Virus record (IMG/VR): IMGVR_UViG_3300028423_000442
Coordinates: 1 to 43,561 of that record
Length of the DNA stretch: 43,561 nucleotides
Strand: one strand, 5' to 3'
Source: a virus
Each line of letters begins with the position of its first letter. The first letter of the stretch is position 1. Shown here in pieces: positions 5,648 to 43,561 of the stretch. A model generated the notes under the pieces. That model was not told the origin of the DNA, did not search any database, and saw nothing but the letters and a program-made list of their open reading frames with translations. A program made the translations under genes and the position numbers.

Positions 5648-5698
5648 GGCGGCTAGGGCAGTACACCCGAAAGCAGGCTTGAACCACCTGTTGCCGCC
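5648..5698 (+). promoter_or_regulatory. Nested inverted repeats upstream of the Mom-like gene
   Basis: GGCGGC (5648-5653) pairs with GCCGCC (5693-5698). Inside it, CAGG (5674-5677) pairs with CCTG (5687-5690). The structure lies 35 bases before the ATG at 5733. The mom mRNA of phage Mu is regulated through a leader structure, so a similar role is possible, but nothing further supports it. Confidence 0.3.
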
Positions 5699-5732
5699 TA
5701 TATCCATGGTTCGACAGCATGTAAGGTTCAGC

Positions 5733-6341
5733 ATGGAAATCAAGCCTATTACGCGCAATCAGTGCGCACCCTTCATTTTAGAAATTCACTACGCTAAGCG
5801 CTGGCCATCTATAAGTTACGCTTTTGGGCTATTCGATGAGTCCGAGCTAATTGGCGTGGTGACCTATGGAACACCGCCTAGCGCACCGCTAAAACGCGGA
5901 ATTGCAGGCGAAGAATTCAAGCATCAGGTGCTAGAGCTTAACCGTCTGTGTTTGAAATATAACCGCAAAAACGAGGCCAGCCGCTTAGTTGGCGCAAGCC
6001 TCAAGAAATTGCCAGAGTGCATTGTCGTGAGCTTTGCCGATACGGCTCAAGACCATAAAGGTTACGTATATCAGGCTTGTAACTTTCTATATTGCGGATT
6101 GAGCGCAAAGCGTACCGACTGGAAAATTAAGGGAAAGGAGCATCTGCACGGGCAGACAGTTGCCGACGAATTTAGAGGCCGGAAAGACAGGGCGGCAGCG
6201 ATGCGCGAGAAGTACGGAGATGACTTCTATCTTGCTGCCCGACCGCGCAAGCATCGTTACGTTTATCTAGTGGGCAGCAAGTCGTTTAAGCGTCGGGCGC
6301 GGAAAGCTATAAGGTATAAGGTTGAAAATTACCCCAAGTAG
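5733..6341 (+). CDS. Mom-like DNA modification protein (GNAT-fold family)
   Basis: A 202-residue protein related by pattern to phage Mu Mom (about 230 residues), which converts adenine in DNA to N6-carbamoylmethyladenine and blocks many restriction enzymes. Family-like segments are IHYAKRWPSISYAFGLF (18-34), the IGVVTYG strand (40-46), LELNRLCL (67-74), and the core SFADTAQDHKGYVYQACNFLY (100-120), which corresponds to the S-x-AD-x-x-x-x-H-x-G-x-x-YQ-A-x-N pattern of Mom. The start at 5733 follows TAAGG. It sits inside the head gene cluster, which is unusual for a modification gene. Identification is by recalled pattern only, not a search. Confidence 0.75.
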   Translation: MEIKPITRNQCAPFILEIHYAKRWPSISYAFGLFDESELIGVVTYGTPPSAPLKRGIAGEEFKHQVLELNRLCLKYNRKNEASRLVGASLKKLPECIVVSFADTAQDHKGYVYQACNFLYCGLSAKRTDWKIKGKEHLHGQTVADEFRGRKDRAAAMREKYGDDFYLAARPRKHRYVYLVGSKSFKRRARKAIRYKVENYPK

Positions 6342-6350
6342 CCCAACCCC

Positions 6351-6379
6351 TTGACCAAAACCACCCAACGGCATAGACT
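6351..6379 (+). promoter_or_regulatory. Sigma70-type promoter of the capsid genes
   Basis: TTGACC (6351-6356), 17-base spacer, TAGACT (6374-6379). It lies in the 65-base gap between the Mom-like gene and the protease/scaffold gene and would start a transcript for 6407 onward. Confidence 0.65.
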
Positions 6380-6406
6380 TATGTAAACCAACTGGAATAA
6401 AAGTCT

Positions 6407-7522
6407 ATGCCAGCTCAACCAATCCGCCGCCAGTTCGCAGACCTAGCGACGTACTCGGTCACTGATCGCACGGCTGTCAGTGTACGCGATGGCGTGCTTG
6501 AGTACTTGGGCGCTGAGCTAGGGCTTGAGCCTGCCGATAAGGTCTTTACCGTTTACCGTTCGCCTGCCACCATTGCCAACGCGGCTTATATGATGGCGGG
6601 CATCCCGCTGACTGACGAGCATGTGACCATTGACGGCCCTGCACCGGATACCGGCAGTACCGTGACCACCTCCGAAGTGATTGACCAGATTGACGAGCCT
6701 ACGTTTGCCCGGTTGGCCGTCAAGAACAAACTGGCCGTGTCGGACTCTATGGGCGTGATGCTGGAAGATAAGCGGCAACTGTCATTGGGCTACACTGCTG
6801 ACCTTGTACCTCATTCCCGATGGGACTTTGAGCAAGTGGGCATTGTCCCGCACCACCTGGCAGCCGTATCAGCAGGGCGCTGTGGCCCGCTGTGCAGTTT
6901 CCTTGATCGTAAACCACCGCAACCGCAAGAAAAGGAGGGCGACATGCCCAAATTGCATAAAGCGTTTTTGGACGCAGAGGGTGCGGTTAGCTTGGAGCAG
7001 ATCGTGGAAATGGCCACGTCCCTGCCTGACGCTATCCGTAAAGTGCCGGTTGATCGCCTTCAGGAGATCATGCCGTCACTGCAAGAGATCATGTCTTACG
7101 CCAAAGAGCAGGGCGCTATGCCTGCCGAGGAAGAAGGCGAAGGCATGGAAGACGAGGATAAGTCGGAAGCCCCGGCAGAGTCCGAAGAGGAAGAAATGAG
7201 CGACGAAGAGAAGCCGAAATTCTCCGACGCTGATTTCAAGGACGCCGTAGCCAAGGCCGCACAAGCCGAGGTGAAGCGCTACGCCGAAGTGGTCAACAAG
7301 GCCCGCAACTTCCTCGACAGCGATTACGATTTCACCAGCAAGAACGCGAACCAAGTAATGCGCGACGCGCTGGCGACTCAATCAACTGATAAGTTTGAAG
7401 ACTCCGAGCTGCCGGTGGCATTTAAAATGCTGCGCAAAGCAGACGCGGACTATTCAAAGTTTGGCGACAGCAAGCCAGAAGGCGGACTGTCTGCCCGAAT
7501 CAAAGCTCAACTGGAGGGCTAA
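6407..7522 (+). CDS. Prohead protease fused to scaffold (DUF2213 family)
   Basis: A 371-residue protein. The first about 165 residues match DUF2213, a family linked to prohead proteolysis: LSLGYTADLVPHSRWDFEQ, then GIVPHHLAAVSAGRCGP with the conserved His and Gly-Arg region. The remaining part is highly acidic and helical (PAEEEGEGMEDEDKSEAP), as scaffolds are. A second start with a strong ribosome site lies at 6944 in the same frame, so a separate scaffold is probably also made. The capsid decoration and major capsid genes follow. Confidence 0.8.
   Translation: MPAQPIRRQFADLATYSVTDRTAVSVRDGVLEYLGAELGLEPADKVFTVYRSPATIANAAYMMAGIPLTDEHVTIDGPAPDTGSTVTTSEVIDQIDEPTFARLAVKNKLAVSDSMGVMLEDKRQLSLGYTADLVPHSRWDFEQVGIVPHHLAAVSAGRCGPLCSFLDRKPPQPQEKEGDMPKLHKAFLDAEGAVSLEQIVEMATSLPDAIRKVPVDRLQEIMPSLQEIMSYAKEQGAMPAEEEGEGMEDEDKSEAPAESEEEEMSDEEKPKFSDADFKDAVAKAAQAEVKRYAEVVNKARNFLDSDYDFTSKNANQVMRDALATQSTDKFEDSELPVAFKMLRKADADYSKFGDSKPEGGLSARIKAQLEG
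6944..7522 (+). CDS. Nested scaffold protein from an internal in-frame start
   Basis: ATG 6944 is in frame with the 6407 gene and is preceded by AAAAGGAGGGCGAC, one of the best ribosome sites in the window. The product would be 192 residues, starting MPKLHKAFLDAEG and including the acidic linker and helical C-terminus. This is the arrangement of lambda C and Nu3, where the scaffold is the C-terminal part of the protease read from its own start. Confidence 0.7.
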   Translation: MPKLHKAFLDAEGAVSLEQIVEMATSLPDAIRKVPVDRLQEIMPSLQEIMSYAKEQGAMPAEEEGEGMEDEDKSEAPAESEEEEMSDEEKPKFSDADFKDAVAKAAQAEVKRYAEVVNKARNFLDSDYDFTSKNANQVMRDALATQSTDKFEDSELPVAFKMLRKADADYSKFGDSKPEGGLSARIKAQLEG

Positions 7523-7525
7523 CCC

Positions 7526-7999
7526 ATGGCTTTTGGTAACACTGTATTGGCAGAAAACAAAGACCTGCCAGCGGGCGAGGTCATCAAGGCCAGCCCTCAC
7601 AACGTATCCGCCTTTGAAGTATTTGAGGATGGGCTGATTGAAGGCCGTTTCGTCAAATACGACACCGGCTCTATCGACAACCTGGACAGCTCAGCGACTC
7701 CGACCATTGCCGGCATCGCGCGCCGTAAGCCGACTGGCGAAATTGGCACGGGCATCTACTCCACCAGCGGTCAGGAAATTGATCAGGTGGCGGAAGTGAT
7801 CAACTTTGGCTTTGCCACTGTCACCGTGACCGACGCAGCAGACCCGGCCAAGTATGATCAGGTGTACGTATCTAACACAGATGACGCAGACCGGGGCAAG
7901 GCTTCCGAGGTCGATACGCTGCTGGAAGTGCCGGGTGTGGTGTTCTGGGAACAGAAAGCCGCGAACGTCTGGCTTGTCCGAATTAACCAATACCTATAA
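7526..7999 (+). CDS. Capsid decoration or cement protein
   Basis: A 157-residue, mostly beta protein placed between scaffold and major capsid protein. It has the look of the structural cement / DUF2190-type proteins: an N-terminal FGNTVLAENKDLPAGEVIKAS, a central GIARRKPTGE stretch and a C-terminal NVWLVRINQYL. Such proteins bind the outside of the expanded capsid and stabilise it. Start ATG 7526 follows the previous stop by one codon. Confidence 0.65.
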   Translation: MAFGNTVLAENKDLPAGEVIKASPHNVSAFEVFEDGLIEGRFVKYDTGSIDNLDSSATPTIAGIARRKPTGEIGTGIYSTSGQEIDQVAEVINFGFATVTVTDAADPAKYDQVYVSNTDDADRGKASEVDTLLEVPGVVFWEQKAANVWLVRINQYL

Positions 8000-28921: not shown

Positions 28922-29382
28922 GCAAGCCAGACTGGAAAAGCGCGCCAGAGTGGGCGCAATGGCTGGCGCAAGACGAGGACGGCGAGTGGTTTTGGTTTGA
29001 AGGTCAGCCAACTGATAAAAGTTGCAGCTGGCAAGATGACGCAAATGGAAAGGTGAGAAGCGCCGGGCTATCTGAAGAAAACGAAACTTGGGCATTTACG
29101 CTTGAAAAGCGCCCTGCCGACCTTGACAGCGCAATCATGACCGAAGAGGAAGAGCAAATGACAGCGGAAGAGCTGCCAAAAAGCAAATACCACCGCGAAA
29201 TCGCCCCCGGCGTATGGGTGGATGTTTACGATGTCCTGCACGCATGGGCCGTACAGAATCCGGCCTTGCAGCACCTCATTAAGAAGGCTTTGCAGCCTGG
29301 CGAGCGGGGACATAAAGACAAGGCTCAGGATATGGACGAAATTGTAGCGTCGGCACTGCGGGCGCGGGAGTTGGAGGGATGA
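28918..29382 (+). CDS. Conserved phage early protein of unknown function
   Basis: A 154-residue protein. The N-terminal half is Trp-rich (DWKSAPEWAQWLAQDEDGEW). The C-terminal half, HREIAPGVWVDVYDVLHAWA then PALQHLIKKALQPGERGHKD, resembles a small domain found in many phage proteins near replication genes (the H-x-KK-x-L-x-x-G-x-RG-x-KD pattern). It overlaps the HTH gene stop and the helicase start. Confidence 0.6.
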   Translation: MSKPDWKSAPEWAQWLAQDEDGEWFWFEGQPTDKSCSWQDDANGKVRSAGLSEENETWAFTLEKRPADLDSAIMTEEEEQMTAEELPKSKYHREIAPGVWVDVYDVLHAWAVQNPALQHLIKKALQPGERGHKDKAQDMDEIVASALRARELEG

Positions 29383-31310
29383 GCGAATATCAGAAATTCA
29401 TCGAGGCGAAGTCATTCCGGCATGTAAACGCTGGCTTCTCTTGCCCTGACGAATTGCCCTATCCGCTTTTCGATTACCAGGAGCCGATTGTCAGATGGGC
29501 GTGCAAGCGAGGCAAGGCGGCTGTATTTGCCGATACCGGACTTGGCAAAACCATCATGCAGTTAGCGTGGGCGGATCAAGTGGCTCAATTTACTAAAGGC
29601 CCGGTTCTGGTTCTGGCACCGCTTGCCGTGTCGAATCAAACGATCAAGGAAGGAGAGAAGTACGGAATTGAAGTGCAGAAAGCGAATCCGGGCGCGCCGA
29701 TGTTTGGTCCGCATATCGTGATCACCAACTATGAGCAGCTGCATAAATTCGATCCTGACGTTTTTCGGGGCATAGTTTTGGATGAGTCCAGCATCCTGAA
29801 AGGCATGGATGGTCGTCGTCGGAAAGAAATAACTGAGTTTGGCCGGTCCATTCCGTATCGATTGAGCTGCACAGCCACTCCGAGCCCTAACGATTTCATG
29901 GAGCTTGGCACGCAGGCGGAGTTTTTGGGAATTATGAGCCAGACTGAAATGCTGGCCATGTTCTTTATCCATGACGGCGGCGATGTGTCGAAGTGGCGGC
30001 TAAAGGGCCACGGAGAGAGCAAGTTCTTCCAATGGCTGGCAACGTGGGCAGTCGTGATACGCAAGCCTGATGATCTGGGATTTGATGGATCGCGCCACCA
30101 CTTGCCGCCGGTTATCTATCACTCCCATGTGGTGGAGACGACGCCGGAAGATTCTCTTTTTGTGGAGCCGGCGCAAGGGCTGCAAGATCGCAATAAGGCC
30201 CGCAAAAACTCCGTTGATGATCGAGTGGCAAAGGCCGCTGAAATCGCCGCGAAAATGGAAGGCCAGGTTTTGATCTGGTGCAACCTGAATGAAGAATCGG
30301 AAAAGCTGGCAAAGGCGATTGATGATGCGGTTGAAGTTAAGGGTAGTGATAAGCCGGAGCATAAAGTTAATGCCGTATTGTGGTTTTCGTGCGATAATGA
30401 TTCGGAGTTAATTTCAAGTTATCCGGGGATAGAATCATGGCTGACCAGCAATACTTCAAAGACTATTACCAAAAAAACAGGGAGAAGCGAATCCAGCAAT
30501 CAAGAGAGTGGCAAGAAAAAAACAAAGAACATCGAAAGGAATACATGCAAAGGTACGCAAAATCAAACAGGGAAAAGTTTAGAAGAACACCAGAACAGCA
30601 AGCAGAATACAACAGAAAAAGAAGGGAGCGATACGCAACAGACCGGCAATACAGGGATCGAGAAAGACAAAAAGTCGCAGAATATCAGCGCGCAAATCCT
30701 GAAAAAAGATTTGCAGATAGGCTTAAAAAATACGGAATCACGCCAGAGCAATATAGATCAATGCTCAAAAGCCAGGGGGGCGGATGCGCAATATGCGGGT
30801 CAGAAGACTCCGGGTGCTCAAAAAAAGAAAGGCTACATGTCGATCACTGCCACGAGACTGGAAGGGTCAGAGGGCTGTTATGCACAAACTGCAATCAAGG
30901 CATCGGAAAATTTAAAGATAACGCCGATAGAATCAGATTGGCAGCAGAATACATTGAAAAAGGTACTGGTTAGTAAGCCCCGCATTTTTGGGTATGGCTT
31001 GAACCTGCAAAACTGCCACCAGATGATATTCGTTGGCCTGTCAGATTCGTGGGAGTCCTACTATCAGGCTATCCGCCGTTGCTGGCGATTCGGGCAAACT
31101 GAACGGGTTCATGTTCACGTAGTGAGCGCCGATACCGAAGGCGCGGTTATCGAGAATATCCAGCGTAAGGATCGCCAGAACCAGCTTCTAGGCGAGCGCA
31201 TGGTTGGCCATATGAAGGCGGCAATGGATAAAGAGATATTCGCCGCATCCACCGAAAAAACAGAATACAACGCAACACAAGCAATGGAGATTCCGGCATG
31301 GCTTCAGTAA
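29379..31310 (+). CDS. SF2 (SNF2/DEAD-like) DNA helicase with a nested endonuclease insertion
   Basis: An open frame of 643 codons. Helicase motifs: Walker A ADTGLGKT (51-58), motif II DESS (135-138), motif III CTATP (164-168), and, after a gap, VLVSKPRIFGYGLNLQNC (529-546) with motif VI QAIRRCWRFGQ. Residues about 340-527 do not look like helicase: they are rich in K, N, Q, S, T and E with no hydrophobic core. In another frame this segment encodes an Endonuclease VII-type protein (30437-30973). Without it the helicase would be about 455 residues, a usual size. It is paired with the methyltransferase that follows. Confidence 0.8.
   Translation: MSEYQKFIEAKSFRHVNAGFSCPDELPYPLFDYQEPIVRWACKRGKAAVFADTGLGKTIMQLAWADQVAQFTKGPVLVLAPLAVSNQTIKEGEKYGIEVQKANPGAPMFGPHIVITNYEQLHKFDPDVFRGIVLDESSILKGMDGRRRKEITEFGRSIPYRLSCTATPSPNDFMELGTQAEFLGIMSQTEMLAMFFIHDGGDVSKWRLKGHGESKFFQWLATWAVVIRKPDDLGFDGSRHHLPPVIYHSHVVETTPEDSLFVEPAQGLQDRNKARKNSVDDRVAKAAEIAAKMEGQVLIWCNLNEESEKLAKAIDDAVEVKGSDKPEHKVNAVLWFSCDNDSELISSYPGIESWLTSNTSKTITKKTGRSESSNQESGKKKTKNIERNTCKGTQNQTGKSLEEHQNSKQNTTEKEGSDTQQTGNTGIEKDKKSQNISAQILKKDLQIGLKNTESRQSNIDQCSKARGADAQYAGQKTPGAQKKKGYMSITATRLEGSEGCYAQTAIKASENLKITPIESDWQQNTLKKVLVSKPRIFGYGLNLQNCHQMIFVGLSDSWESYYQAIRRCWRFGQTERVHVHVVSADTEGAVIENIQRKDRQNQLLGERMVGHMKAAMDKEIFAASTEKTEYNATQAMEIPAWLQ
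30437..30973 (+). CDS. Endonuclease VII-type HNH endonuclease nested inside the helicase gene
   Basis: A 178-residue protein in the +2 frame relative to the helicase. Residues 1-95 are a Lys/Arg/Glu/Gln-rich helix. Residues 97-175 fit Endonuclease_7 (T4 gp49-like): YGITPEQYRSML, CAIC (117-120), HVDHCHETGRVRGLLC (134-149), CNQGIGKF. Zinc ligands are Cys117/120 and Cys149/152; active-site His is in HVDHCH. GGGGAT 8 bases before the ATG can act as ribosome site. The stop is only a few bases inside the returning helicase sequence, so the gene fills nearly the whole insertion. Role: homing endonuclease or resolvase. Confidence 0.9.
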   Translation: MADQQYFKDYYQKNREKRIQQSREWQEKNKEHRKEYMQRYAKSNREKFRRTPEQQAEYNRKRRERYATDRQYRDRERQKVAEYQRANPEKRFADRLKKYGITPEQYRSMLKSQGGGCAICGSEDSGCSKKERLHVDHCHETGRVRGLLCTNCNQGIGKFKDNADRIRLAAEYIEKGTG

Positions 31311-32260
31311 TTGATCAAGTTCACACCAACGACTATGCAGCCTATCACGCAGACACGGTAGAAGTGGCGATGGGCCTGCCTGACGATAGCATTGATTTCA
31401 GCATTTTTTCTCCGCCTTTTGAGTCATTATATACATACAGCAACAGTGACCGAGATATGGGGAACAGCAAGGATTCTGACGAGTTCTGGCGGCAATACCT
31501 GTACCTGATCAAAGAGCAATATCGGGCCATGAAGCCGGGGCGGATCATTGCAATTCACTGCATGAACCTGCCGACCAGCAAACAGAATGACGGCTTTATC
31601 GGTATCCGAGACTTCCGGGGCGAAATCATCCGCACCTATCAGGACGCGGGCTTTATCTATCATTCAGAAGTCTGCATCTGGAAAGATCCAGTGGTTGCTA
31701 TGCAGCGGACCAAGGCACTCGGATTGCTGCACAAGACCATCAAGAAAGATAGCGCCATGAGTCGCATGGGCATTGCTGACTACATGGTTATGATGCGCAA
31801 GCCTGGAGACAATGCAAATCCGGTGAGTGGCGAGTTTAACTATTACGTGGGGGACAACCCGGCCCCCGGATTCAAGCGCCATAAGTGGGATGATGGACGT
31901 GAATGCTGGACAGTCGAGGAAGGTAGCCACAACACCAGCGTTGATGTGTGGCAGCGGTATGCCAGCCCGGTGTGGGATGACATTAACCAAACTGACACAT
32001 TGAACTACCGAGAAGGCCGTGATAGCGATGACGAGCGCCACATTGCCCCATTGCAGCTTGATGTTATTCAGCGTTGTCTGCAGATGTGGAGCAAGCCCGG
32101 CGAAATCGTATGGAGCCCGTTTATGGGTATCGGCAGTGAGGGGTATATGAGCCTGAAAGCTGGCCGGCGATTTATCGGGGCAGAGCTGAAAAAATCATAC
32201 TTCGATCTGGCTATCCGCAACATGGAAGCCGCAAAAGAAACGCAATACGATCTGTTTTAA
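31298..32260 (+). CDS. Site-specific DNA methyltransferase (beta-class, N4/N6)
   Basis: A 320-residue enzyme transferring methyl groups from SAM to an amino group on DNA bases. Catalytic motif IV is SPPF (39-42 region, FSPPFESLYTY), and the SAM-binding motif I comes late: SPFMGIGSEGYMSLKAG then FIGAELKKSYFDLA. Motif IV before motif I is the beta-class order; SPPF favours N4-cytosine, N6-adenine is possible. It starts inside the last codons of the helicase gene; such helicase/methylase pairs recur in phages. It may protect phage DNA. Confidence 0.85.
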   Translation: MASVIDQVHTNDYAAYHADTVEVAMGLPDDSIDFSIFSPPFESLYTYSNSDRDMGNSKDSDEFWRQYLYLIKEQYRAMKPGRIIAIHCMNLPTSKQNDGFIGIRDFRGEIIRTYQDAGFIYHSEVCIWKDPVVAMQRTKALGLLHKTIKKDSAMSRMGIADYMVMMRKPGDNANPVSGEFNYYVGDNPAPGFKRHKWDDGRECWTVEEGSHNTSVDVWQRYASPVWDDINQTDTLNYREGRDSDDERHIAPLQLDVIQRCLQMWSKPGEIVWSPFMGIGSEGYMSLKAGRRFIGAELKKSYFDLAIRNMEAAKETQYDLF

Positions 32261-32271
32261 GGAATCAAGCC

Positions 32272-33252
32272 ATGATCACAGTCACCAAAGAAACCCTATC
32301 CCCGGCCATGAAAAAGCTGGCCAAGATTGCAGGCAAGAAAACCAGCCTGCCGATCATGAATCACGTTGCCGTCGATTTTGACGGCAGCACCTTGACCCTG
32401 ACCGCCAATGACGGCAATGCCACCTACAGCGCCCGCATGGAGGCGCAAGGCAAGGCGTGCCAATTCACGACCGAAGCGGATAAGCTGGCCAAGTCGGTTA
32501 ACGCGATGCGGGCCGGTGAGATCCAGCTAACCGACGGGCAGATCAAGCAAGGGCGTAGCCGGATCAAGCTGGATTGCGGCAACTATGACGACTTCCCGCA
32601 ACCGGATTACGGGGCGGCTGAAGAGCTGTCATTTTCTGCCGAGGCGCTAGGCGCGTCTCTGGCGTCCGTGAGTCACTGCATCCCGCAGGACGATGTTCGG
32701 TACTACCTGAATGGCGCGTGCCTGGTAGACGGTAACGCAGTGGCCACAAACGGACACCGCATGGCCTGGACCGATCTGGACTTTGAAGGCAGGATAATCA
32801 TTCCGCAAGAAGCGGTCAGCCAGATCATCGGCATGGATGGCACGGTGTCACTGTCACAAAACCAGCTCATCATTGAAAACGACTCCGAGCGGTTCAGCAC
32901 GAAGCTGGTTGAGGGCAACTATCCAGACTGGAAGCGCGTTGTTCCGACTGGCGATGCCGTTACCGTTAATGCTGACGCGGGCGATATCCTGGAAGCCCTG
33001 CAAGCCGCTCAGATTGGCGGCGAAACGGCACGCTTTGAGTTCTCCGGGGATAGCGTAGCAATCAGCAACAATGGGGCCGAGGCGGCGTTTTCGTGCGAGT
33101 CTGACAGTGATATGACCATTGGCTTTTCGATCAAGTATCTGATGGATGCCGTGAAAGCGTGCGGGGATGGTACAATCGAGATTCAGCTATTTGAGGCTAA
33201 CCGCCCTTGCATTGTTGGCGGCAATAACGTGGTCATGCCAGTAAGGCTATAA
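32272..33252 (+). CDS. dnaN-like: DNA polymerase III beta sliding clamp homologue
   Basis: A 326-residue clamp, shorter than the host's about 366. Conserved features: ITVTKETLSPAMKKLAKI at the start, SLPIMNHVAVDFDGSTLTLTAND, RYYLNGACLVDGNAVATNGHRMA (the strongest family signature), KLVEGNYPDWKRV and the C-terminal CIVGGNNVVMPVRL. No polymerase gene is present, so it probably recruits host Pol III or another clamp-binding protein to phage DNA. An intrinsic terminator follows 7 bases after the stop. Confidence 0.9.
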   Translation: MITVTKETLSPAMKKLAKIAGKKTSLPIMNHVAVDFDGSTLTLTANDGNATYSARMEAQGKACQFTTEADKLAKSVNAMRAGEIQLTDGQIKQGRSRIKLDCGNYDDFPQPDYGAAEELSFSAEALGASLASVSHCIPQDDVRYYLNGACLVDGNAVATNGHRMAWTDLDFEGRIIIPQEAVSQIIGMDGTVSLSQNQLIIENDSERFSTKLVEGNYPDWKRVVPTGDAVTVNADAGDILEALQAAQIGGETARFEFSGDSVAISNNGAEAAFSCESDSDMTIGFSIKYLMDAVKACGDGTIEIQLFEANRPCIVGGNNVVMPVRL

Positions 33253-35019: not shown

Positions 35020-36616
35020 ACTCTCTCCTAACAACTTTGTGATATTTTCCGTCCGGTTTGACCCATATCGCGGATGGCGATTCCGTGTATGGCAGCCGTT
35101 CAAGCGCTTCGTCTACGGTCATCTTCGGAGCGCCGTGCTGATCCATCCATTGCTTTGCCCTGGCTTCAGCATAACCGCCATGTTCAAGGCATACCCACTC
35201 GCTAAAAGTTCGCAGCCCACAATGGTAATCCACCTTTACGCTGTCCGGCTTGCCCATTTTCTTGTGCCGTGAGTAGGTGGCGAAATCGACTTCTATCCGC
35301 TCTGCCTTGACCTGGTTACTCAGTATCGGCGCGTCGCTTGCCTTGCCGTCAAAGTTTGGGGGCGGCGGTGGGAAGATGTAGCCGCAATCAGGGCACTCTC
35401 TGGAAGCTATCAGCAACAGGCTGTGACAATCCGGGCACTCTTTCACGGGTGTATCGCCTGGCTCGTCTCCGGCCATTTTAGCCGCCCTGCCTTTGATCTT
35501 ATCGACTGGCCCATGCCGTGAACTGTTTTGGCCGAAATCCAGAACCAGGCAATCAGTCTTGCCTTGCGCTAAACGAGTGCCACGACCGCAAATCTGGACC
35601 CATAGGCCGGGCGATTTGGTGGGGCGAATGACCGCCAACAGATCCACCTCTGGCACGTTGAATCCAGTGGTCAAAACGTCGCAGTTTGTCAGGCAACGAA
35701 TCTTGCCAGCTTTGAAGTCTTCGATAATCTGATCACGTTCGGCGTCTGGCGTTCCGCCGTGGATCATTTCGGCGCTGTAGCCACGCGCCCGGACCTCATC
35801 GCGTATGTGTTCAGCGTGTGCGACACTGACGCCAAAGGCAAGCCAGGACTTTCGGTCCTTGCCGTATTCGACAATTTCAGAGACAGCTTCGCGTGTGACC
35901 GCTTCCTGATCGACCGCCTCGGCAAGCCCCTTTTTCTGAAAATCGCCGCCAACGGTTTTCACGCCACTGGTATCTATTTGCGTGTGCATACCCTTGTGAA
36001 TCAGTGGCGACAGATACCCCCATTCGATCAGGTCGGCAATACCAACTTCATAGGCAATGCGCCCGAATATCCGGCCATCGCCCTGATCTAGTCGCCCGGA
36101 CTGCATACGAAAAGGCGTTGCCGTGTACCCGATGATCTTAACATAGGGGTTGGCCAGCTTTAGATCGTCCAGCAGCTTGCGATACATGCCCTCGGCTTTG
36201 TGCGGGATCAAGTGAGCCTCGTCAACAATGACAAGATCCACCGAGTCCATGTCGAAGCCGTTTTTGTAAACGGACTGAATAGAGGCAAAAACCACCTGCC
36301 CCGAAAAGTCTTTTTTCTTGCTGATGCTGGCAGACGCTATCGAGGTTTTACAGTGCGGCATGACCTCTTTCATCGTGTCGTGGTTCTGCTTTACCAGCTC
36401 CTTAACGTGGACTAGCTGCAAGATTCTGGTATCGGGCCATTGCTCGATAGCCTCACGGATGAATGTCGCCAGTACGGGGGCTTTGCCGCCCCCGGTTGGA
36501 ATGACCACCAGCGGGTTACTGGCCCATGCTTCAAAGTGATCATAAATGGCGTCGATGGATTCGCGCTGATATTGGCGCAGGGCGAACGGGTTGGGGCGCG
36601 GGATGGTTGAGGTCAT
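34988..36616 (-). CDS. DEAH-box SF2 helicase with zinc finger
   Basis: A 542-residue helicase: Walker A IPTGGGKAPV (about 39-48), DEAH in VDEAHLIPH, TATPFRM (motif III), GGTPDAERDQI, LTTGFNVPEVD (motif V) and QICGRGTRL (motif VI). A zinc-binding pair, CPDC and CPDC, lies near 400-420 and is typical of phage helicases of this kind. The Walker A has Ala where Thr or Ser is usual (GGGKA). It opens DNA for the recombination or replication genes around it. ATG 36616 overlaps the preceding stop. Confidence 0.85.
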   Translation of the reverse strand: MTSTIPRPNPFALRQYQRESIDAIYDHFEAWASNPLVVIPTGGGKAPVLATFIREAIEQWPDTRILQLVHVKELVKQNHDTMKEVMPHCKTSIASASISKKKDFSGQVVFASIQSVYKNGFDMDSVDLVIVDEAHLIPHKAEGMYRKLLDDLKLANPYVKIIGYTATPFRMQSGRLDQGDGRIFGRIAYEVGIADLIEWGYLSPLIHKGMHTQIDTSGVKTVGGDFQKKGLAEAVDQEAVTREAVSEIVEYGKDRKSWLAFGVSVAHAEHIRDEVRARGYSAEMIHGGTPDAERDQIIEDFKAGKIRCLTNCDVLTTGFNVPEVDLLAVIRPTKSPGLWVQICGRGTRLAQGKTDCLVLDFGQNSSRHGPVDKIKGRAAKMAGDEPGDTPVKECPDCHSLLLIASRECPDCGYIFPPPPPNFDGKASDAPILSNQVKAERIEVDFATYSRHKKMGKPDSVKVDYHCGLRTFSEWVCLEHGGYAEARAKQWMDQHGAPKMTVDEALERLPYTESPSAIWVKPDGKYHKVVRREYGLQENRRLA

Positions 36617-37080
36617 GGCGACACCCAAAAGTCATCTTGCGTTGATTCGCTTTCATTCTTGTCAAATATCGGGCACCTGATAAAATCAATCCCCTGGCCC
36701 TCAAGAATTTTTTTGAACCTGTCATCTGGACAGACAATCACAAATTTACTTATAGCGTGGCCGACAAAAAAATCATATTGCCTAATTTGTCTAATGGTTT
36801 CGCCAACATTTTTTATTTTTGATTTAACTTCAAATATTAATCTCTGGCCAGTGCTGGTGCTGACCAGTAAATCGGCATAACCGATGATGGTTTTGTATTG
36901 GCCCGTGCCCTTAGGTAGTGCCGCCTCCCATTCGGCATCTTCCACTTCGTATCCCATTTCCCCGGCGATTTCGTCTATGTTTTCATAGAGCCAGATCATT
37001 ATCTGGTCATGCTCGTCTGTCATAAGATCGGAATCAACGAATCCCGCGTTACGCAAGTTTGCCTTATCTTTTCTGTTCAT
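36613..37080 (-). CDS. PD-(D/E)XK nuclease-like protein, AT-rich
   Basis: A 155-residue protein. GYADLLVSTSTGQRLIFEVKSKIKNVG is a good PD-(D/E)XK core: Asp in YADLL, then E-V-K with the lysine, followed by the helix TIRQIRQYDFFVG. The C-terminal FVIVCPDDRFKKILEGQGIDF completes the fold. By eye the DNA is richer in A and T than its neighbours, a sign of transfer. It could be a defence-related or anti-restriction nuclease. It overlaps both neighbours by 4 bases. Confidence 0.65.
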   Translation of the reverse strand: MNRKDKANLRNAGFVDSDLMTDEHDQIMIWLYENIDEIAGEMGYEVEDAEWEAALPKGTGQYKTIIGYADLLVSTSTGQRLIFEVKSKIKNVGETIRQIRQYDFFVGHAISKFVIVCPDDRFKKILEGQGIDFIRCPIFDKNESESTQDDFWVSP

Positions 37081-38102
37081 TTCACAACCTCCCCATCAAA
37101 CTTCTCAATAATCGCCGTCGCATTCCCATCTAGCGCCCGGACATCTTCAGCCGCCGCAATGTTTCGGCTGCTAACCCCGCTATGGCTATCATCAGCCGCA
37201 TTTATAAGGCCGTTCTCATAACTCATGGTGTGCGAGTCGGGGTCATATTCCTTGACCTTCAGCGGCATCACAGACGGGTTAAATAGATGATCCGGGCAAG
37301 CGTCTTTTTGGTCATCGGTGGTTAAATCTGTTTTATGGTGTTCGCAGAACCATGTACCGTCCTGGCGAGGCGTTACAAAGGCGCAGGATCGGCAGCTAAC
37401 CTTTGGCGCTTTGTTGCCATGACACACATCGGAATAGTCGCAAAACTTGCACTTGAAAAAGGCCGGATCGGATGAAATGCCAGATAGCGGCTCTTCTGAA
37501 AACACAATACGCTCGGCTTTTTCTTCCAGTTGCTTTCCGACTGACGGCTTAATGTGGCCGCGCTCGACATACAGTTCATCGGTGTCCTTGTTTTTGGCCA
37601 GGTACAGGAACCGTGGCAATTCCTCCTTGTAGCCATAAATCTGCATCTGAGCGTAATGCTGTGGTTTTGCAGCTTCTACGCCCTTCTGCTTAAGCTCCTT
37701 AAACGACTTGGCGTTGTGGGTCTTCATTTCGACAACGTGCGGCTTTGAGCTGCCGGGTACGTCAATCGCTACCCCATCAAGCGAGCCGCCCGCATGGCCG
37801 CCCGCCATCTTGATTCGGATTTGCCGGCCTGTGTCGGGATCAACTTCCCAAACCTGACATCCGATTCCGCGAAGCTCTTTTACAAATCGGTCTTCTTCTA
37901 GCTGACCAGTCTCAAACAGCCGAAGCATTCGCCCGTCAAATGACGGCGGCAGAGTCCAGCGAAACGAGTACCAGAGCTTGCGCTCGCACTCATCGCCCAA
38001 CAGTGAGCCGCCAAGGTGCGGGCGTCGCCAGTCGCCTTGCTTGCTCTCGTGGTATTGGTAGATTGCTGTTACGATTGGGTGGTCGGTTGGTAGTTTTGCC
38101 AT
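37077..38102 (-). CDS. RecB-like PD-(D/E)XK exonuclease
   Basis: A 341-residue nuclease. RRPHLGGSLLGDECERKLWYSFRW is the N-terminal RecB/Cas4-type part; GGSLDGVAIDVPGSSK then HVVEMKTHNAKSF has the catalytic Asp and E-x-K; QHYAQMQIYGY is the conserved Q-x-x-x-Y motif. A Cys cluster (CKFCDYSDVCHG, then CRSCAF) could bind Zn or an Fe-S cluster. With the DUF669 and Sak4 genes upstream it forms a recombination set, degrading DNA ends for annealing. GGAGTG precedes the ATG at 38102. Confidence 0.8.
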   Translation of the reverse strand: MAKLPTDHPIVTAIYQYHESKQGDWRRPHLGGSLLGDECERKLWYSFRWTLPPSFDGRMLRLFETGQLEEDRFVKELRGIGCQVWEVDPDTGRQIRIKMAGGHAGGSLDGVAIDVPGSSKPHVVEMKTHNAKSFKELKQKGVEAAKPQHYAQMQIYGYKEELPRFLYLAKNKDTDELYVERGHIKPSVGKQLEEKAERIVFSEEPLSGISSDPAFFKCKFCDYSDVCHGNKAPKVSCRSCAFVTPRQDGTWFCEHHKTDLTTDDQKDACPDHLFNPSVMPLKVKEYDPDSHTMSYENGLINAADDSHSGVSSRNIAAAEDVRALDGNATAIIEKFDGEVVK

Positions 38103-38119
38103 GGTGTTCACTCCAGATT

Positions 38120-38148: not shown

Positions 38149-38613
38149 TCACTTCTGCCAAGGTTTTTTCGGCGCTGACTGTTGCTGCTGTTGCGGTGCG
38201 GCCTGTTGTTGCGTCTGCCCGCCGCCCAGCTTTTTATAGGCGCTGATTTCGTTCTGAGGGTCATACCCCTGAGACTGTCGAATCTTGACCTTAACTGACA
38301 TCGGCTTGTCGTGGAGTTCGCTAGAGTCGTTCGGAGTCAGTACGCCAACCGCGTGACAGATAGCGGACAACTCGCGTTGCGCAATATCGACCGCCGTCTG
38401 GTTCGGGTTGTTAAGGTTCAGGCGGGCAAAAATCTTACGCCCGGTATATTCGCCGTCGCAGACCTCGAAAACCAGTTGCAGGTATTCGCCCATTCCGTTT
38501 TTAGTCGGTTTCATTTCCGAGTCCGTAATCATGGCGACGTAATCGCCTGCCGGAATCGGCTCGAAATCCATTTGCGGTTCTACTGCTTCAGCGTTAAATC
38601 CTTGCAAGTTCAT
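38149..38613 (-). CDS. DUF669 protein (probable ssDNA-binding protein)
   Basis: A 154-residue protein. The beta core (DFEPIPAGDYVAMITDSEMK, GEYLQLVFEVCDGEYTGRKIF, RLNLNNPNQTAVDIAQREL) matches DUF669, which occurs next to Sak4-type recombinases and has an SSB-like role. The C-terminal tail is Gln/Pro-rich (GGGQTQQQAAPQQQQQ), ending PKKPWQK; it looks like the flexible tail of an SSB but lacks the acidic tip. AGGTG precedes ATG 38613. Confidence 0.8.
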   Translation of the reverse strand: MNLQGFNAEAVEPQMDFEPIPAGDYVAMITDSEMKPTKNGMGEYLQLVFEVCDGEYTGRKIFARLNLNNPNQTAVDIAQRELSAICHAVGVLTPNDSSELHDKPMSVKVKIRQSQGYDPQNEISAYKKLGGGQTQQQAAPQQQQQSAPKKPWQK

Positions 38614-38639
38614 AATGTTCACCTTTTTCGCTTGGTTGT

Positions 38640-39404
38640 TTATTGCATGGTTTCGTTCAGAGCGGCGTCAAAATCCGCCCATGAAAGATTAATGGTTGGT
38701 GGCAAGTTGTAGCGGTTGCCCGCCAGGTAGGCCGGAGAGCCCTCAAGGCGCAACTCACGCTGACCGCCATCAATGCCCCGGAATCGTTCGCCGCTTTCGG
38801 TCTTTTTGGCGAATACCTTTTTGGTGGCGAAGCCGATGATATCCGCCCATTCGTTGAGCAGAGACAGAGCGCCAGAGTTGCCAGATTTCGGCTCGTGGAG
38901 CTTCATCTTGTAGCAGTCATACGCCTCGCTTTCGGGGTCATTAATGGTCACGATGCGGCTGTGACAGATCATGCCGATTATCATGCCGCGAGTGGCGGAT
39001 AGGTGATCCAGAGCGCCCAACAGCTTGCGCCAGTAGTTCAGCGCCTCGGAGTAGCCCTTGCCGTATCCGCCGGCTGCAAGCTCGATGGTTTTGACGTTGT
39101 GATCCTGGCACACCTTGTCGTGAATCAGGCGCTCAAGCCAATCGGCGCTATCAATAACGACCGTGCGGAAATCGTGTTCTTCGTTTTGCAGTGACTCAAT
39201 GGCCTCGAAAACCTGAGATAGATCCGTGGCCAGCGGGAACGCTTGCGCGTCGATACCGGCCAGGCCATCTTCCGTCTGAATAAAAATGGTGTCAGGAGCC
39301 TGAGCGAAAAACGTAGACTTGCCCACCTTTTCGCTGCCATGAATGATCATGCGCGGCGGCTTTGCGTGTTTGGTTTTGGTGATGTGTGCAAGCGAAATAG
39401 CCAT
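38640..39404 (-). CDS. Sak4-like P-loop ATPase (AAA_24), RecA-type recombinase
   Basis: A 254-residue ATPase with Walker A GSEKVGKST (23-31), Walker B TVVIDSADW (81-89) and the ATRGMIIGMICHSR segment. It matches the AAA_24/Sak4 family, which promotes single-strand annealing together with a DUF669-type SSB. The gene order (DUF7173-like, Sak4, DUF669, RecB-like nuclease) is a known recombination cassette. It overlaps the preceding gene at 39404. Confidence 0.85.
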   Translation of the reverse strand: MAISLAHITKTKHAKPPRMIIHGSEKVGKSTFFAQAPDTIFIQTEDGLAGIDAQAFPLATDLSQVFEAIESLQNEEHDFRTVVIDSADWLERLIHDKVCQDHNVKTIELAAGGYGKGYSEALNYWRKLLGALDHLSATRGMIIGMICHSRIVTINDPESEAYDCYKMKLHEPKSGNSGALSLLNEWADIIGFATKKVFAKKTESGERFRGIDGGQRELRLEGSPAYLAGNRYNLPPTINLSWADFDAALNETMQ

Positions 39405-39900: not shown

Positions 39901-40068
39901 ATGCTGACATTAATGGAAATTGCCGAAAAGCTGAGAGACCGCCGATTGAGCGTTGTTGCCGAGGCGACTGGCCTGCATTACAACACCATCAAAAGCGTAA
40001 GGGACGGCGCTAATCATCGGCCAAGCTATGAAACCGTAAAAGCCCTCTCTGACTACCTGACAAAGTAA
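39901..40068 (+). CDS. Small helix-turn-helix regulator
   Basis: A 55-residue protein, MLTLMEIAEKLRDRRLSVV then AEATGLHYNTIKSVRDGANH. VVAEATGLHYNTIKSVRDG is a textbook helix-turn-helix, as in XRE-type or phage Cro-like proteins. GGAGTAAAAA gives the ribosome site. It probably represses the two divergent promoters just upstream. It precedes the primase gene by 9 bases. Confidence 0.75.
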   Translation: MLTLMEIAEKLRDRRLSVVAEATGLHYNTIKSVRDGANHRPSYETVKALSDYLTK

Positions 40069-40077
40069 GGCGGCAAC

Positions 40078-42309
40078 ATGGACATGAAACAGCACGCGCT
40101 CGAATACGCGGCGCGGGGATGGGCGGTTTTTCCTGTTCACACGCCAACGGCTAACGGGAAATGCTCATGCCACCGCCACAACTGCGAGCGAATCGGCAAG
40201 CATCCGAGAATCGGCAGCGGTCGAAATGGCGCAACGACTGACCCCGATATGATTGATCGGTGGTGGTCAACCTGGCCAGACGCCAATATCGGTATCGCCA
40301 CGGGCAAAGAGTCCGGCCTGATTGTTTTGGACGTAGACGACGGCGGCGAAGACTCTCTAACCGGCAAGCCGCTGCCCGATACCGTAGAGCAGATCACCGG
40401 ATCAGGTGGCCGCCACCTGGTCTACAAGCGCCCGGACGATGACAACCGGTATAAAACTCGCGTGCGGTTTATGCCGGGACTCGATAGCCGGGCCGATGGA
40501 GGCTATATCGTGGCCCCGCCATCGTTGCACGAATCCGGCAATCGGTACGATTGGGAGGGCAGCTCTGACCCGACAGAAGGCGTTGAGCCGGTGGACCCGC
40601 CTCAGTGGTTTGTGGATGCCATTGGCGAAGCCCCGCTTGATAGTTCGGCCAACCCGGCCCCGGAATGGAACCCTGACGGCGATTTGCCAGAGAACATCAT
40701 GGAGATTCTGTCCTATATCCCGGCAGAGGATTATGAGGTCTGGCGTGATACCGGCATGGCCTTGCACTATGAAGATCCGGCAGATGGCCTAGAGATATGG
40801 GACTGGTGGAGCGGGACCGCCGCCAACTATTCCCCCGATGCCGTAAAGCGTGAATGGCGAAACTTTTCGCGCCGTGGTCATGCCGTCGCCAACCCCATTA
40901 CCGTTTCCACCATCATGCGCCTGGCAGAACAGCACGGCTGGACTGACCCGGCCATTGAGCATGGGGCAGAGGTGGCCAATCGACTGATTGAGAGTCACCA
41001 GAGATCAGTTACCGAACAGCTGACAAGCAAAGCGCCGAAACCGGCTACGATTGAAGCGCCGGAAATGCTGCCGCCTACCGGGCTGATTCGCGGCATTGCT
41101 GATCGAATCCTTGAAACCAGTATCAGGCCGCAACCTCGACTGGCTGTTGCCGCCGCACTGGCCTTTGTGGGCACGCTGGCCGGGCGCAAGTATCGGACAG
41201 AAACCGGCCTGATGAGCAACGTCTATGTGGCAGCCTTGGCGCAATCCGGCCACGGCAAGGATCACGCCCGAAAGGTGATTAACAATCTGGTGACTCAGGC
41301 CGGAGTGGATGACTACCTTGGCGGGGACGCCATCGCATCCGGCCAGGCGGTTATATCGGCGCTCGTTCGCCACCCCTCAAAGCTGTTTATGCTTGACGAG
41401 TTCGGCAAGTTTTTGGGGGCGCTGACCGGCCAGAAAGCCGCCCCACACCAGCGAGACATAATCACCAAACTGATGATCCTGTACTCGTCTGCCGGATCGG
41501 TATATCGGGGCACGGAATACGCAGACCAAAAAGAGCGCCCGCGAGAGGACATTGTAAACCCTAACGCCTGCGTTTACGGGACATCGGTTGCGGAGAACTT
41601 TTGGGGCGCAATGTCAAGCTCTGAAGGTGGTGACGGCACCATGTCCCGGCTTATTGTGGTAGAAGCAAAGCCGCAAAGGCCAAAGCGACAGCGCCCAGGT
41701 ATGGGGTCTGTCGATCCCGCCCTGGTTGACGCGATAGCCGATCTGGCGAACTATTCGCCCGGTGGCGGCAACCTTTCAGGCCGTGCTGGTGCAGGCGTCG
41801 ATGAGCAATCGCAGACCGTGCCCATGACGAGCGCCGTGTTCAAGGCGTGGGAGGATCTTGATGATGACATGACCGAAAACATGACCGACGGCATTAGTGC
41901 CTCGATCTATAGCCGGGTGGCTGAAAACGCCGCCAAGTTGGCCATGATCTATGCCGTGTCATTGGATCATCACGCGCCGGTCATTGATGACGATGCTTTT
42001 TTGTGGGGGCGTGAGCTGGCGCTATGGTCGGCAAACACGCTCATGCACAACATTGGCCGCAACGTGGCAGACAACCAGCAGGAGGCTAGCTATAAGCGGG
42101 TAATGAACCACATTCACGACAATGTAGAGATCAAGCGCCGGGATCTGATGCGCAAGTGCAAGTTTCTCAAAAAGCGCGAGCTGGATGAAATCGTGTCGCT
42201 TGCCCTGGAAGCCGGAGAAATCACCATCGAAAACCGGAAAGGCAACGCCGGGCCGGCGGCGACTTTCTATGTGTCAGTTGACAACACACCCGAACCTGGC
42301 ACAGAATGA
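40078..42309 (+). CDS. Primase-polymerase / helicase (prim-pol, PriCT_2 and DUF3987-type)
   Basis: A 743-residue replication protein. Residues 1-180: bifunctional primase-polymerase N-domain (YAARGWAVFPVH, CSCHRHNC which may bind zinc, LIVLDVDDGGED with the metal-binding Asp pair, and GRHLVYKRP). Residues 210-290: PriCT_2-like linker (ILSYIPAEDYEVWRDTGMAL). Residues 330-743: a DUF3987-type P-loop domain with LAQSGHGKDHARK (GKD instead of GKT/S, as in some relatives) and LFMLDEFGKFL (Walker B). It should prime and unwind phage DNA. The repeat-rich origin candidate lies right behind it. Confidence 0.85.
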   Translation: MDMKQHALEYAARGWAVFPVHTPTANGKCSCHRHNCERIGKHPRIGSGRNGATTDPDMIDRWWSTWPDANIGIATGKESGLIVLDVDDGGEDSLTGKPLPDTVEQITGSGGRHLVYKRPDDDNRYKTRVRFMPGLDSRADGGYIVAPPSLHESGNRYDWEGSSDPTEGVEPVDPPQWFVDAIGEAPLDSSANPAPEWNPDGDLPENIMEILSYIPAEDYEVWRDTGMALHYEDPADGLEIWDWWSGTAANYSPDAVKREWRNFSRRGHAVANPITVSTIMRLAEQHGWTDPAIEHGAEVANRLIESHQRSVTEQLTSKAPKPATIEAPEMLPPTGLIRGIADRILETSIRPQPRLAVAAALAFVGTLAGRKYRTETGLMSNVYVAALAQSGHGKDHARKVINNLVTQAGVDDYLGGDAIASGQAVISALVRHPSKLFMLDEFGKFLGALTGQKAAPHQRDIITKLMILYSSAGSVYRGTEYADQKERPREDIVNPNACVYGTSVAENFWGAMSSSEGGDGTMSRLIVVEAKPQRPKRQRPGMGSVDPALVDAIADLANYSPGGGNLSGRAGAGVDEQSQTVPMTSAVFKAWEDLDDDMTENMTDGISASIYSRVAENAAKLAMIYAVSLDHHAPVIDDDAFLWGRELALWSANTLMHNIGRNVADNQQEASYKRVMNHIHDNVEIKRRDLMRKCKFLKKRELDEIVSLALEAGEITIENRKGNAGPAATFYVSVDNTPEPGTE

Positions 42310-42321
42310 ACGCACCTACCG

Positions 42322-42357
42322 CAAGTTGCTGTTTTTATTGAAAAACTTGGCAACTTG
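42322..42357 (+). other. Hairpin after the primase gene
   Basis: CAAGTTGC (42322-42329) pairs with GCAACTTG (42350-42357); inside, TTTTT (42332-42336) can pair with AAAAA (42341-42345). No T-run follows, so it is not a standard terminator. Confidence 0.4.
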
Positions 42358-42416
42358 TCACTAACCTGTCAACCGCAATGGGTGACAGGTTATCCCCTTG
42401 ATTTGCAAGGCAAAAT

Positions 42417-42495
42417 TACTACCTGTCAACTGTTCCCGCCATTTTATACTAGGAAGAAATACCCCTATACCTATGGGAACAGTTGACAGGTAGTA
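42417..42495. repeat. Perfect 21-bp inverted repeat
   Basis: Left arm 42417-42437 (contains ACCTGTCAACTGTTCCC), right arm 42475-42495 (contains GGGAACAGTTGACAGG), with 37 bases between. Each arm contains one copy of the iteron motif. It could form a cruciform or bind a dimeric initiator. Confidence 0.9.
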
Positions 42496-42542
42496 TATCT
42501 CTTCTTTTTTTTTCTTCTATCTCAACTACTTACTTAAAAATA

Positions 42543-42585
42543 ACCCGTCACCAACCCGTCACCAAAAACATTTACCCGTCACCAA
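42543..42585 (+). repeat. Three direct repeats ACCCGTCACCAA
   Basis: Identical 12-mers at 42543-42554, 42554-42565 and 42574-42585. They are a sub-class (CCCGTCACC) of the CCTGTCAAC repeats upstream. Spacing of 11 and 20 bases keeps them on one face of the helix. Confidence 0.85.
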
Positions 42586-42599
42586 CTGAAAAAACCCAC

Positions 42600-42627
42600 T
42601 TGCACCCACACCCATTCCATGTATAAT
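42600..42627 (+). promoter_or_regulatory. Promoter of the early small-gene block
   Basis: TTGCAC (42600-42605), 16-base spacer, consensus TATAAT (42622-42627), 37 bases before the ATG at 42664. The iterons stop just upstream, so the same protein could control it. Confidence 0.6.
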
Positions 42628-42663
42628 TAGAACTATAGAGACACGGCAACGGAGAGAAACGAA

Positions 42664-42852
42664 ATGGCCAAGAAAGAAACCATCTACATCGTCAGCAACG
42701 AAGACAACCTGATCATCCGCGCCAGCCGCACTTATCTTGCTGCGCTGGAGCATTCAACAAAATTGGAAGACGGCAGCTTTTACCTCTGCACTTCCGAGTT
42801 CAACGGACTGAAGAAAGGCGACCCGATCAGCAACATCGAGAGCTTTCTGTGA
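42664..42852 (+). CDS. Small early protein of unknown function
   Basis: A 62-residue protein starting MAKKETIYIVSNEDNLIIRA, a beta/alpha layout with a central helix (TYLAALEHSTKLED). CGGAGAGAAACGAA is the ribosome site. It is first in an overlapping set of short genes that crosses the contig join. Confidence 0.6.
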   Translation: MAKKETIYIVSNEDNLIIRASRTYLAALEHSTKLEDGSFYLCTSEFNGLKKGDPISNIESFL

Positions 42853-43049
42853 TGGAGGCTCTCAACAGCAAACCGGCAAGCACCCTGAAGATTGGAGACA
42901 CCATTCAAGTCTGGTGGGGCGCTAAGCGGGCAACCGTGACTGGCTTTCGCTCGCATAGCAGTCAGCAAGCAGGATGGACCGTTGCGGATTTTGCAGACGG
43001 CGTGTCCATGACCATTACCCCAAACATGAGAGTTAAGGAGATCGCATGA
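42852..43049 (+). CDS. Small early protein, beta-barrel-like
   Basis: A 65-residue protein from ATG 42852 (GTG 42849 also possible and overlaps the previous stop). LKIGDTIQVWWGAKRATVTGF followed by GWTVADFADGVSMTITP resembles a small SH3-like barrel. Function unknown. Its stop overlaps the next ATG (ATGA). Confidence 0.55.
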   Translation: MEALNSKPASTLKIGDTIQVWWGAKRATVTGFRSHSSQQAGWTVADFADGVSMTITPNMRVKEIA

Positions 43050-43561
43050 AATCAACCGGCAAAACCCGAAGCATCTACATCCACCAGGAAGACTACGATT
43101 ACCTGGGGCGCATCGGCAACGGCTACGCTGACGGACTCAGGAAAGCCGTGGAGGCGCATAAGTGGTTGAGGGCGGCGAATGGTACTGGTGAGGGTGAAAA
43201 GGGCGTTAGAGGTGACGAGAGGGGGGGGGTCACAGAAATGAAGCATACACCGACGCCGTGGGCGTGGGCAGGAAACGACATTGAGGCCGGCGAATACGGA
43301 CAGACCGACGTAATGGCTCCAGAGGTAGCATGTGGAATGTATTGCCAAGGCGGTATGGTCGATCTGAACATCTCTCAGGATGACAAGGATTATATCGTCA
43401 AGGCGGTTAACTATCATGATCGGCTGGTTGAGGCTTTGCGCCAGACAACCGAAGAGCTTGCCGACGAGATCCAAGGGAAGTACAGCGAGGACGATCTCAA
43501 GTATCCGTCAATGCAACGCAGCTACCGTGCGGACATTGATCAAGTAAAAATCAACGAAGCA
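43046..43561 (+). CDS. Fused frame: ribbon-helix-helix-like protein plus MKHTPTPW-type protein (continues at 1-129)
   Basis: One open frame from ATG 43046 through the contig end to 129, 181 codons after removing the overlap. Residues 1-40 (TRSIYIHQEDYDYLGRIGN then ADGLRKAVEAHKW) look like a ribbon-helix-helix DNA-binding protein. Residues 65 on, MKHTPTPWAWAGNDIEAG, are a start typical of another small phage protein. The two parts are joined across a run of nine G (43221-43229). With eight G the first protein would end at a TGA overlapping the ATG of the second, the usual arrangement here. So this is probably two genes fused by a one-base insertion or sequencing error. Confidence 0.6.
   Translation, partial: MKSTGKTRSIYIHQEDYDYLGRIGNGYADGLRKAVEAHKWLRAANGTGEGEKGVRGDERGGVTEMKHTPTPWAWAGNDIEAGEYGQTDVMAPEVACGMYCQGGMVDLNISQDDKDYIVKAVNYHDRLVEALRQTTEELADEIQGKYSEDDLKYPSMQRSYRADIDQVKINEA
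43221..43229 (+). repeat. Nine-G homopolymer at a gene junction
   Basis: Nine consecutive G lie 9 bases before the ATG at 43238. Removing one G gives an upstream stop TGA at the ATGA overlap. It may be a sequencing error, a phase-variable tract, or a programmed slip site. Confidence 0.7.
43463..43561. repeat. Terminal direct repeat, right copy
   Basis: Identical to 1-99. It should be removed when the circular sequence is joined (unique length 43,462 bases). Confidence 0.95.

Follow-up and report, generated by a model that had tools for sequence, protein, structure and literature searches.

The Rep protein of SaPIs reads, through its C-terminal domain, iterons located directly downstream of its own gene, and the isolated C-terminal domain of Cch2 likewise binds its putative origin (PMC7581432). 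In Gram-positive and Gram-negative PICIs, the AT-rich region 3' of rep has a set of iterons on either side, and a plasmid replicates from one segment of this kind (PMC6092414). The polymerase of phage NrS-1 combines primase, polymerase, and helicase activity, and an 8-nt sequence recognized by the primase occurs twice in the NrS-1 genome and has been proposed as its origin (PMC7102993). In the open literature searched, no direct precedent was found for the pairing of a prim-pol with iterons, nor was there one among Streptococcus thermophilus phage origins.

Here, we describe a region of IMG/VR virus record IMGVR_UViG_3300028423_000442, whose whole 43,561-nt stretch is referred to as the window. 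An end overlap of 99 bp in this circular virus record bears out the 43,462-base circle assumed in an original prediction, and the window encodes a complete tailed phage with terminase, portal, capsid, protease, tail sheath, and tape measure proteins. A Mom-like DNA modification protein (phrog_1384; 5679-6341) is encoded amid the head genes. Judging from its sequence and that of its relatives, the region is probably an iteron-type origin of a tailed phage, located directly 3' of its own initiator gene and bound by the winged helix of the prim-pol encoded there.

Anatomy of the intergenic region

The original prediction, made from the letters alone, viewed the region as a candidate initiator-bound origin and as the only long non-coding DNA, directly behind a prim-pol gene. 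In our own gene list, this gap is indeed the window's longest, at 354 bp, with the next longest at 202 bp. Its features are as follows:

42310-42663, no strand: proposed iteron-type replication origin, non-coding, directly 3' of the prim-pol stop; layout kept in relatives L001, L019, and L024
42354-42362, plus: degenerate iteron CTTGTCACT, with 2 mismatches
42365-42373, plus: iteron CCTGTCAAC of set 1, forming an inverted pair with 42381-42389
42381-42389, minus: iteron CCTGTCACC of set 1
42417-42437, plus: left arm of a perfect 21-bp inverted repeat
42422-42430, plus: iteron CCTGTCAAC of set 1, within the left arm
42475-42495, minus: right arm of the inverted repeat
42482-42490, minus: iteron CCTGTCAAC of set 1, within the right arm
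42491-42543, no strand: AT-rich spacer (79% AT) separating the two iteron sets, proposed melting region
42544-42583, plus: iteron set 2, three direct copies of CCCGTCACC at 42544, 42555, and 42575
42600-42627, plus: promoter-like TTGCAC-N16-TATAAT into the gene at 42664, read by eye; weak, and missed by a consensus scan

The array begins approximately 45 bp past the prim-pol stop, and its unit is ACCTGTCAAC. Eight CCYGTCAMC-type repeats in both orientations had been claimed; seven are exact (42365+, 42381-, 42422+, 42482-, 42544+, 42555+, and 42575+), while the eighth is the degenerate copy at 42354-42362. They fall into set 1 (42354-42490), made of two inverted pairs, and set 2, made of three direct copies with spacings of 11 and 20 bp. 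These spacings, the perfect inverted repeat, the T tract (T9 at 42505-42513), and the AT-rich DNA were all confirmed. The arms of the inverted repeat lie 37 nt apart, each is built around one iteron, and the repeat folds as single-stranded DNA with an energy of -23.2 kcal/mol (z -8.6).

Exact copies of CCYGTCAMC averaged 0.012 in dinucleotide shuffles of the region, with a maximum of 1 (n = 5000), and the whole window contains only one more, at 5424 on the minus strand and inside a gene. An untargeted 9-mer statistic likewise yielded 8 in the region, where shuffles gave 2.7 (maximum 4), and ranked the region first among the genome's 354-bp tiles. Among 80-bp windows, the one from 42465 ranks as the genome's second least stable; the least stable 80-bp stretch (36766-36845) lies within the ORF at 36613-37080 and is devoid of iterons.

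A DnaA-box search, missing from the original prediction, found no TTATNCACA in the region; the window's sole copy is at 30878. A search of Rfam gave no match. Cumulative GC skew, which had been suggested as a check, was uninformative because it follows gene strand: its detrended minimum (1656) is approximately 2.6 kb from the array, and its maximum (34512) falls where the gene strands switch.

The adjacent prim-pol and other replication genes

The following genes are relevant to the proposed origin:

40078-42309, plus: prim-pol, 743 aa, proposed initiator, with Prim-Pol (PF09250), PriCT_2 (PF08707), an MCM-like AAA+ helicase region, and a C-terminal winged helix
42073-42282, plus: winged-helix domain of the prim-pol (residues ~666-735), proposed iteron reader; Lys695 at 42160-42162
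39901-40068, plus: 55-aa Cro/CI-like HTH protein, directly upstream of the prim-pol; its recognition helix does not track the iterons
38149-38622, minus: single-strand DNA-binding-like protein (phrog_6015)
38640-39404, minus: Sak4-like AAA_24 annealing protein
37077-38111, minus: Cas4-domain exonuclease
32272-33252, plus: polymerase processivity factor-like (clamp-like) protein (phrog_947)

By domains, the best reading of the prim-pol is an NrS-1-like primase-polymerase-helicase. Its sequence matches Prim-Pol (E 5e-42) and PriCT_2 (E 2e-13), and phrog_3022, a family of phage primases, matches residues 4-720, indicating full-length similarity. An AlphaFold (AF2) model places a winged helix at residues 667-733, in a prediction built from 30 sequences (mean pLDDT 83.5, pTM 0.56) whose domain placement is uncertain. 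When this model was used with Foldseek, MCM helicase chains were the top matches, pointing to a P-loop ATPase fold in the predicted helicase region, and the NrS-1 primase-polymerase (6a9w, E 1.7e-5) and pRN1 ORF904 were also matched; the low whole-chain TM-scores are to be expected for a multidomain model of uncertain domain placement. A phmmer comparison of the prim-pol with the PDB found no match, and a profile search reached only pRN1 ORF904. Folding the C-terminal 114 residues from a single sequence gave a poor model (pLDDT 53), which was left out.

Several further genes merit mention. The clamp-like protein is present, yet no family A or B polymerase was found among the ORFs scanned, which were part of all ORFs. 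At 29379-32260, the ORF after a 643-aa helicase is methyltransferase-like and has a second match, to the C-terminal part of that helicase's family (phrog_16).

Position and layout of arrays in relatives

No close relative was found in a search of genome contigs. The closest relative, L001 (76%), possesses an array in the same place with the unit ATACTGTCCC. Measured from the prim-pol stop, the iterons lie at 57+, 74-, 114+, 175-, 236+, 247+, and 267+ in the window and at 67+, 85-, 124+, 185-, 237+, and 249+, plus others, in L001, and the iterons of the inverted repeat are 61 bp apart in both, with changed sequence. Array layout is therefore conserved while the unit has been switched in place. 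The start of the product encoded at 43046-43561 is strongly conserved in L001 (QEDYDYLGRIGNGYADGLRKAVEAHK) despite the differing iterons.

More distant relatives present comparable arrangements. For example, L019 (56%) has the unit CATATTGTCCC in the same two-set layout flanking AT-rich DNA, L024 (47%) has two sets of AACCTGTCAA around AT-rich DNA, and L190, which has a different backbone, has the unit AACCTGTCAnCC. Named phages with an array near a homologous gene include Synechococcus phage Yong-M3-232 (GCTAACCGACA) and Pseudomonas phage Baskent_P4_1 (CCCTATCCCC).

For a wider view, 350-bp tiles of each locus were scored by the copies of their most frequent 9-mer family (up to 1 mismatch, both strands, non-overlapping). 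The 350 bp directly 3' of the prim-pol stop were the strict richest tile in 46 of 140 distinct relatives, versus at most 6.6 expected, the loci being related to one another so that the trials are not independent; a strict maximum was seen in 26 of 67 loci in the first set and 24 of 72 in a later one. Approximately two-thirds of relatives are without a clear array in this tile, some because the array is elsewhere. In L021, for example, where gene order differs, 11 copies of ATTTTTCAA lie upstream of the prim-pol operon (2128-2983), and so the position 3' of the prim-pol is not universal. A far "array" in L023 (~7350-7550) was discarded as a pentapeptide-repeat protein gene that mimics DNA repeats. 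A different layout occurs in Loktanella phage pCB2051-A (L010), where two long imperfect inverted repeats, with arms of 41 and 56 nt, lie 3' of the prim-pol homologue (6291-6663).

As a positive control, the tile statistic recovered both the crr of P4, directly 3' of alpha, and the P4 ori. This phage also supplies the model for a competing role, in which the array is a crr-like initiator-binding element, required in cis or for copy-number control, while synthesis begins at another site. The crr array of P4, required in cis, is indeed separated by approximately 5 kb from the annotated origin, which has its own copies of the same repeat; an array 3' of the initiator gene is thus not necessarily where replication begins. 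The window's least stable 80 bp, at 36766, likewise lies outside the region. However, the only other exact iteron is the one within a gene at 5424, leaving no second array as in P4, and an AT-rich stretch lies between the two sets of the array itself, as in the origins of PICIs (PMC6092414). A crr-like role is the main competitor of the origin reading but seems unlikely.

Which protein reads the iterons?

As the possible reader of the iterons, the original prediction named the prim-pol or a small HTH/RHH protein. Across 27 dereplicated loci, the best predictor of iteron distance was winged-helix distance (Mantel r = 0.68). In partial Mantel analyses, the winged helix retained 0.53 once the helicase region was controlled for, whereas the reverse control left the helicase region with 0.19, the segment directly before the winged helix with 0.21, and the PrimPol domain with 0.36. 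The C-terminal domain, a winged helix by prediction, thus co-varies with the iterons across loci, a correlation that physical linkage in recombination tracts could partly underlie.

More telling are pairs of closely related phages. The L057 and L034 proteins are 96% identical in the helicase region and 40% in the winged helix, and their iterons are ACTCTTCAA and ATnCGTCAA, respectively; at the DNA level, 87% identity extends to -98 of the stop, gives way to unalignable sequence as far as +243, and resumes at 83% beyond it. Similarly, L070 and L082 are 90.6% identical up to -145 of the stop, with identity resuming at +344, and again the iterons change. These breaks in identity indicate that the 3' end of the gene and the array are exchanged as one piece: between near-identical phages, the array has been replaced jointly with the final 33-50 codons of the prim-pol. 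Pairs at 87-91% were needed to see this, since at the 70% DNA identity of the window and L001 non-coding DNA is unalignable anyway. Breakpoints recur within the winged-helix domain, immediately ahead of its presumed reading part, a pattern that functional coupling would appear to explain better than linkage alone.

This behavior bears on two further readings of the locus. In one, the repeats are operators through which a transcription factor controls the promoter of the genes from 42664 on, with no role in replication. Set 2 does lie just upstream of the promoter-like TTGCAC-N16-TATAAT, whose elements and spacing are the same in L001. Nevertheless, the unit changes completely among relatives and the promoter does not, set 1 and the inverted repeat are far from the promoter, and the repeats track the winged helix of the prim-pol and are replaced along with it, making a purely regulatory function quite improbable. 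In the other, the region is an origin, with the small HTH protein (39901-40068) or some other small protein as the iteron reader that loads the prim-pol. Such an HTH gene is found directly upstream of the prim-pol in the window and several relatives. In a comparison of four loci, however, the recognition helix is nearly the same in the window (GLHYNTIKSVRDG) and L019 (GLHYNTIRNVRDN), whose iterons differ, and the window and L024 share an iteron core with different HTH helices (GLSYGTVLNITKP in L024). We therefore consider a small-protein reader very unlikely; the sequence comparisons favor the prim-pol over the small HTH protein. Finally, the strong hairpin and the T9 run behind it would suit a terminator, packaging, or recombination site with incidental repeats, but such a site can hardly account for the inverted repeat: its 37-nt loop is unfit for an intrinsic terminator (a scan for these reports none in the region), its arms are built from iterons, and L001 keeps the 61-bp spacing though the sequence has changed.

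Proposed mechanism

Under the favored reading, an origin read by the prim-pol itself, the winged helix would bind the AACCYGTCAMC iterons in the two sets, on the left the two inverted pairs and on the right the three direct copies. Helicase rings would then assemble on the iterons and melt the AT-rich DNA at 42491-42543, after which the same prim-pol would prime and either extend the DNA itself or hand over to host Pol III via the phage clamp-like protein. We infer, then, that physical binding, melting, and the start of replication all take place at this region. The iterons were also considered as simple priming sites: the GTGA motif of NrS-1 is present in the CACC-type copies and absent from the TCAAC copies and from L001's unit, and this role was rejected accordingly.

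A possible recognition rule and exchangeable cassette

Lys695, which lies between helices 2 and 3, marks a position that may hold a recognition rule. Gln at this position accompanies TCAA/TTCA in 11 of 13 winged-helix types versus 0 of 17 others (Fisher 1.4e-6), and Arg accompanies TCCC in 4 of 7 types versus 1 of 23 (p 0.006), although these p-values overstate the rule, since it was seen before counting, the types, collapsed at a loose similarity cut-off, are in part still related, and some alignments there are uncertain. L021, which lies outside the rule table, combines Gln with its upstream array of 11 ATTTTTCAA copies and fits. The association of Gln with TCAA and Arg with TCCC is thus put forward as a post hoc hypothesis. 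L085 and L226 have very different initiators, both with His at the turn position, and ATAACCG iterons are found 3' of the prim-pol in L085 and in relatives of L226.

It is tempting to suggest, if only tentatively, that the origins of phages with this primase-polymerase-helicase are exchangeable cassettes. A single swap would replace the adjoining array along with the last 33-50 codons, which encode the turn, recognition helix, and wing of the winged helix, and would thereby alter replication specificity at one stroke, possibly following a rule at the Lys695 position that matches Gln with TCAA half-sites, Arg with TCCC, and Lys with TCAMC. The proposed origin arrangement is seen here in a whole tailed phage as well as in numerous relatives, and natural near-isogenic pairs that are identical but for winged helix and array make origin specificity, as well as origin-based incompatibility between co-infecting phages, directly testable. 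The same pairs constitute a data set for a protein-DNA recognition rule.

Comparison with known systems

Unlike a DnaA-dependent origin, the region is devoid of DnaA boxes. Four other systems are closer. In SCCmec Cch2/CCPol-MP, the C-terminal domain of an initiator helicase binds short repeats located downstream of the operon (PMC7581432), much as is proposed for the window's prim-pol; the system differs in having separate polypeptides and three 5-nt iterons. The NrS-1 primase-polymerase has the same succession of Prim-Pol, PriCT_2/helix-bundle, and hexameric-type helicase region, as also reflected in the Foldseek match to 6a9w, whereas no iteron array is described in NrS-1 (PMC7102993).

In the satellite phage P4 (alpha/crr/ori), an array in both orientations lies directly 3' of a primase-helicase gene, its unit TGTTCACC resembles the window's CTGTCACC, and the same blind statistic detects both; P4 differs in possessing a second array at its annotated origin, none of which was found in the window. 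The Rep-ori systems of PICIs and SaPIs (SaPIbov1, EcCICFT073) likewise have the origin directly 3' of the initiator gene, with two iteron sets flanking an AT-rich region (PMC6092414), and the window matches this layout, with 79% AT between its sets. In those systems, the initiator helicase recognizes its iterons with the C-terminal domain (PMC7581432), as is proposed here from sequence. In contrast, set 1 of the window consists of inverted pairs, the initiator is a single prim-pol, AAA+, and winged-helix protein, and the element carries its own structural genes, making it a complete tailed phage and not a helper-dependent satellite island of the PICI class. Taken together, the best reading is an iteron origin of the SaPI/P4 type, found here in a whole tailed phage with an NrS-1-like initiator.
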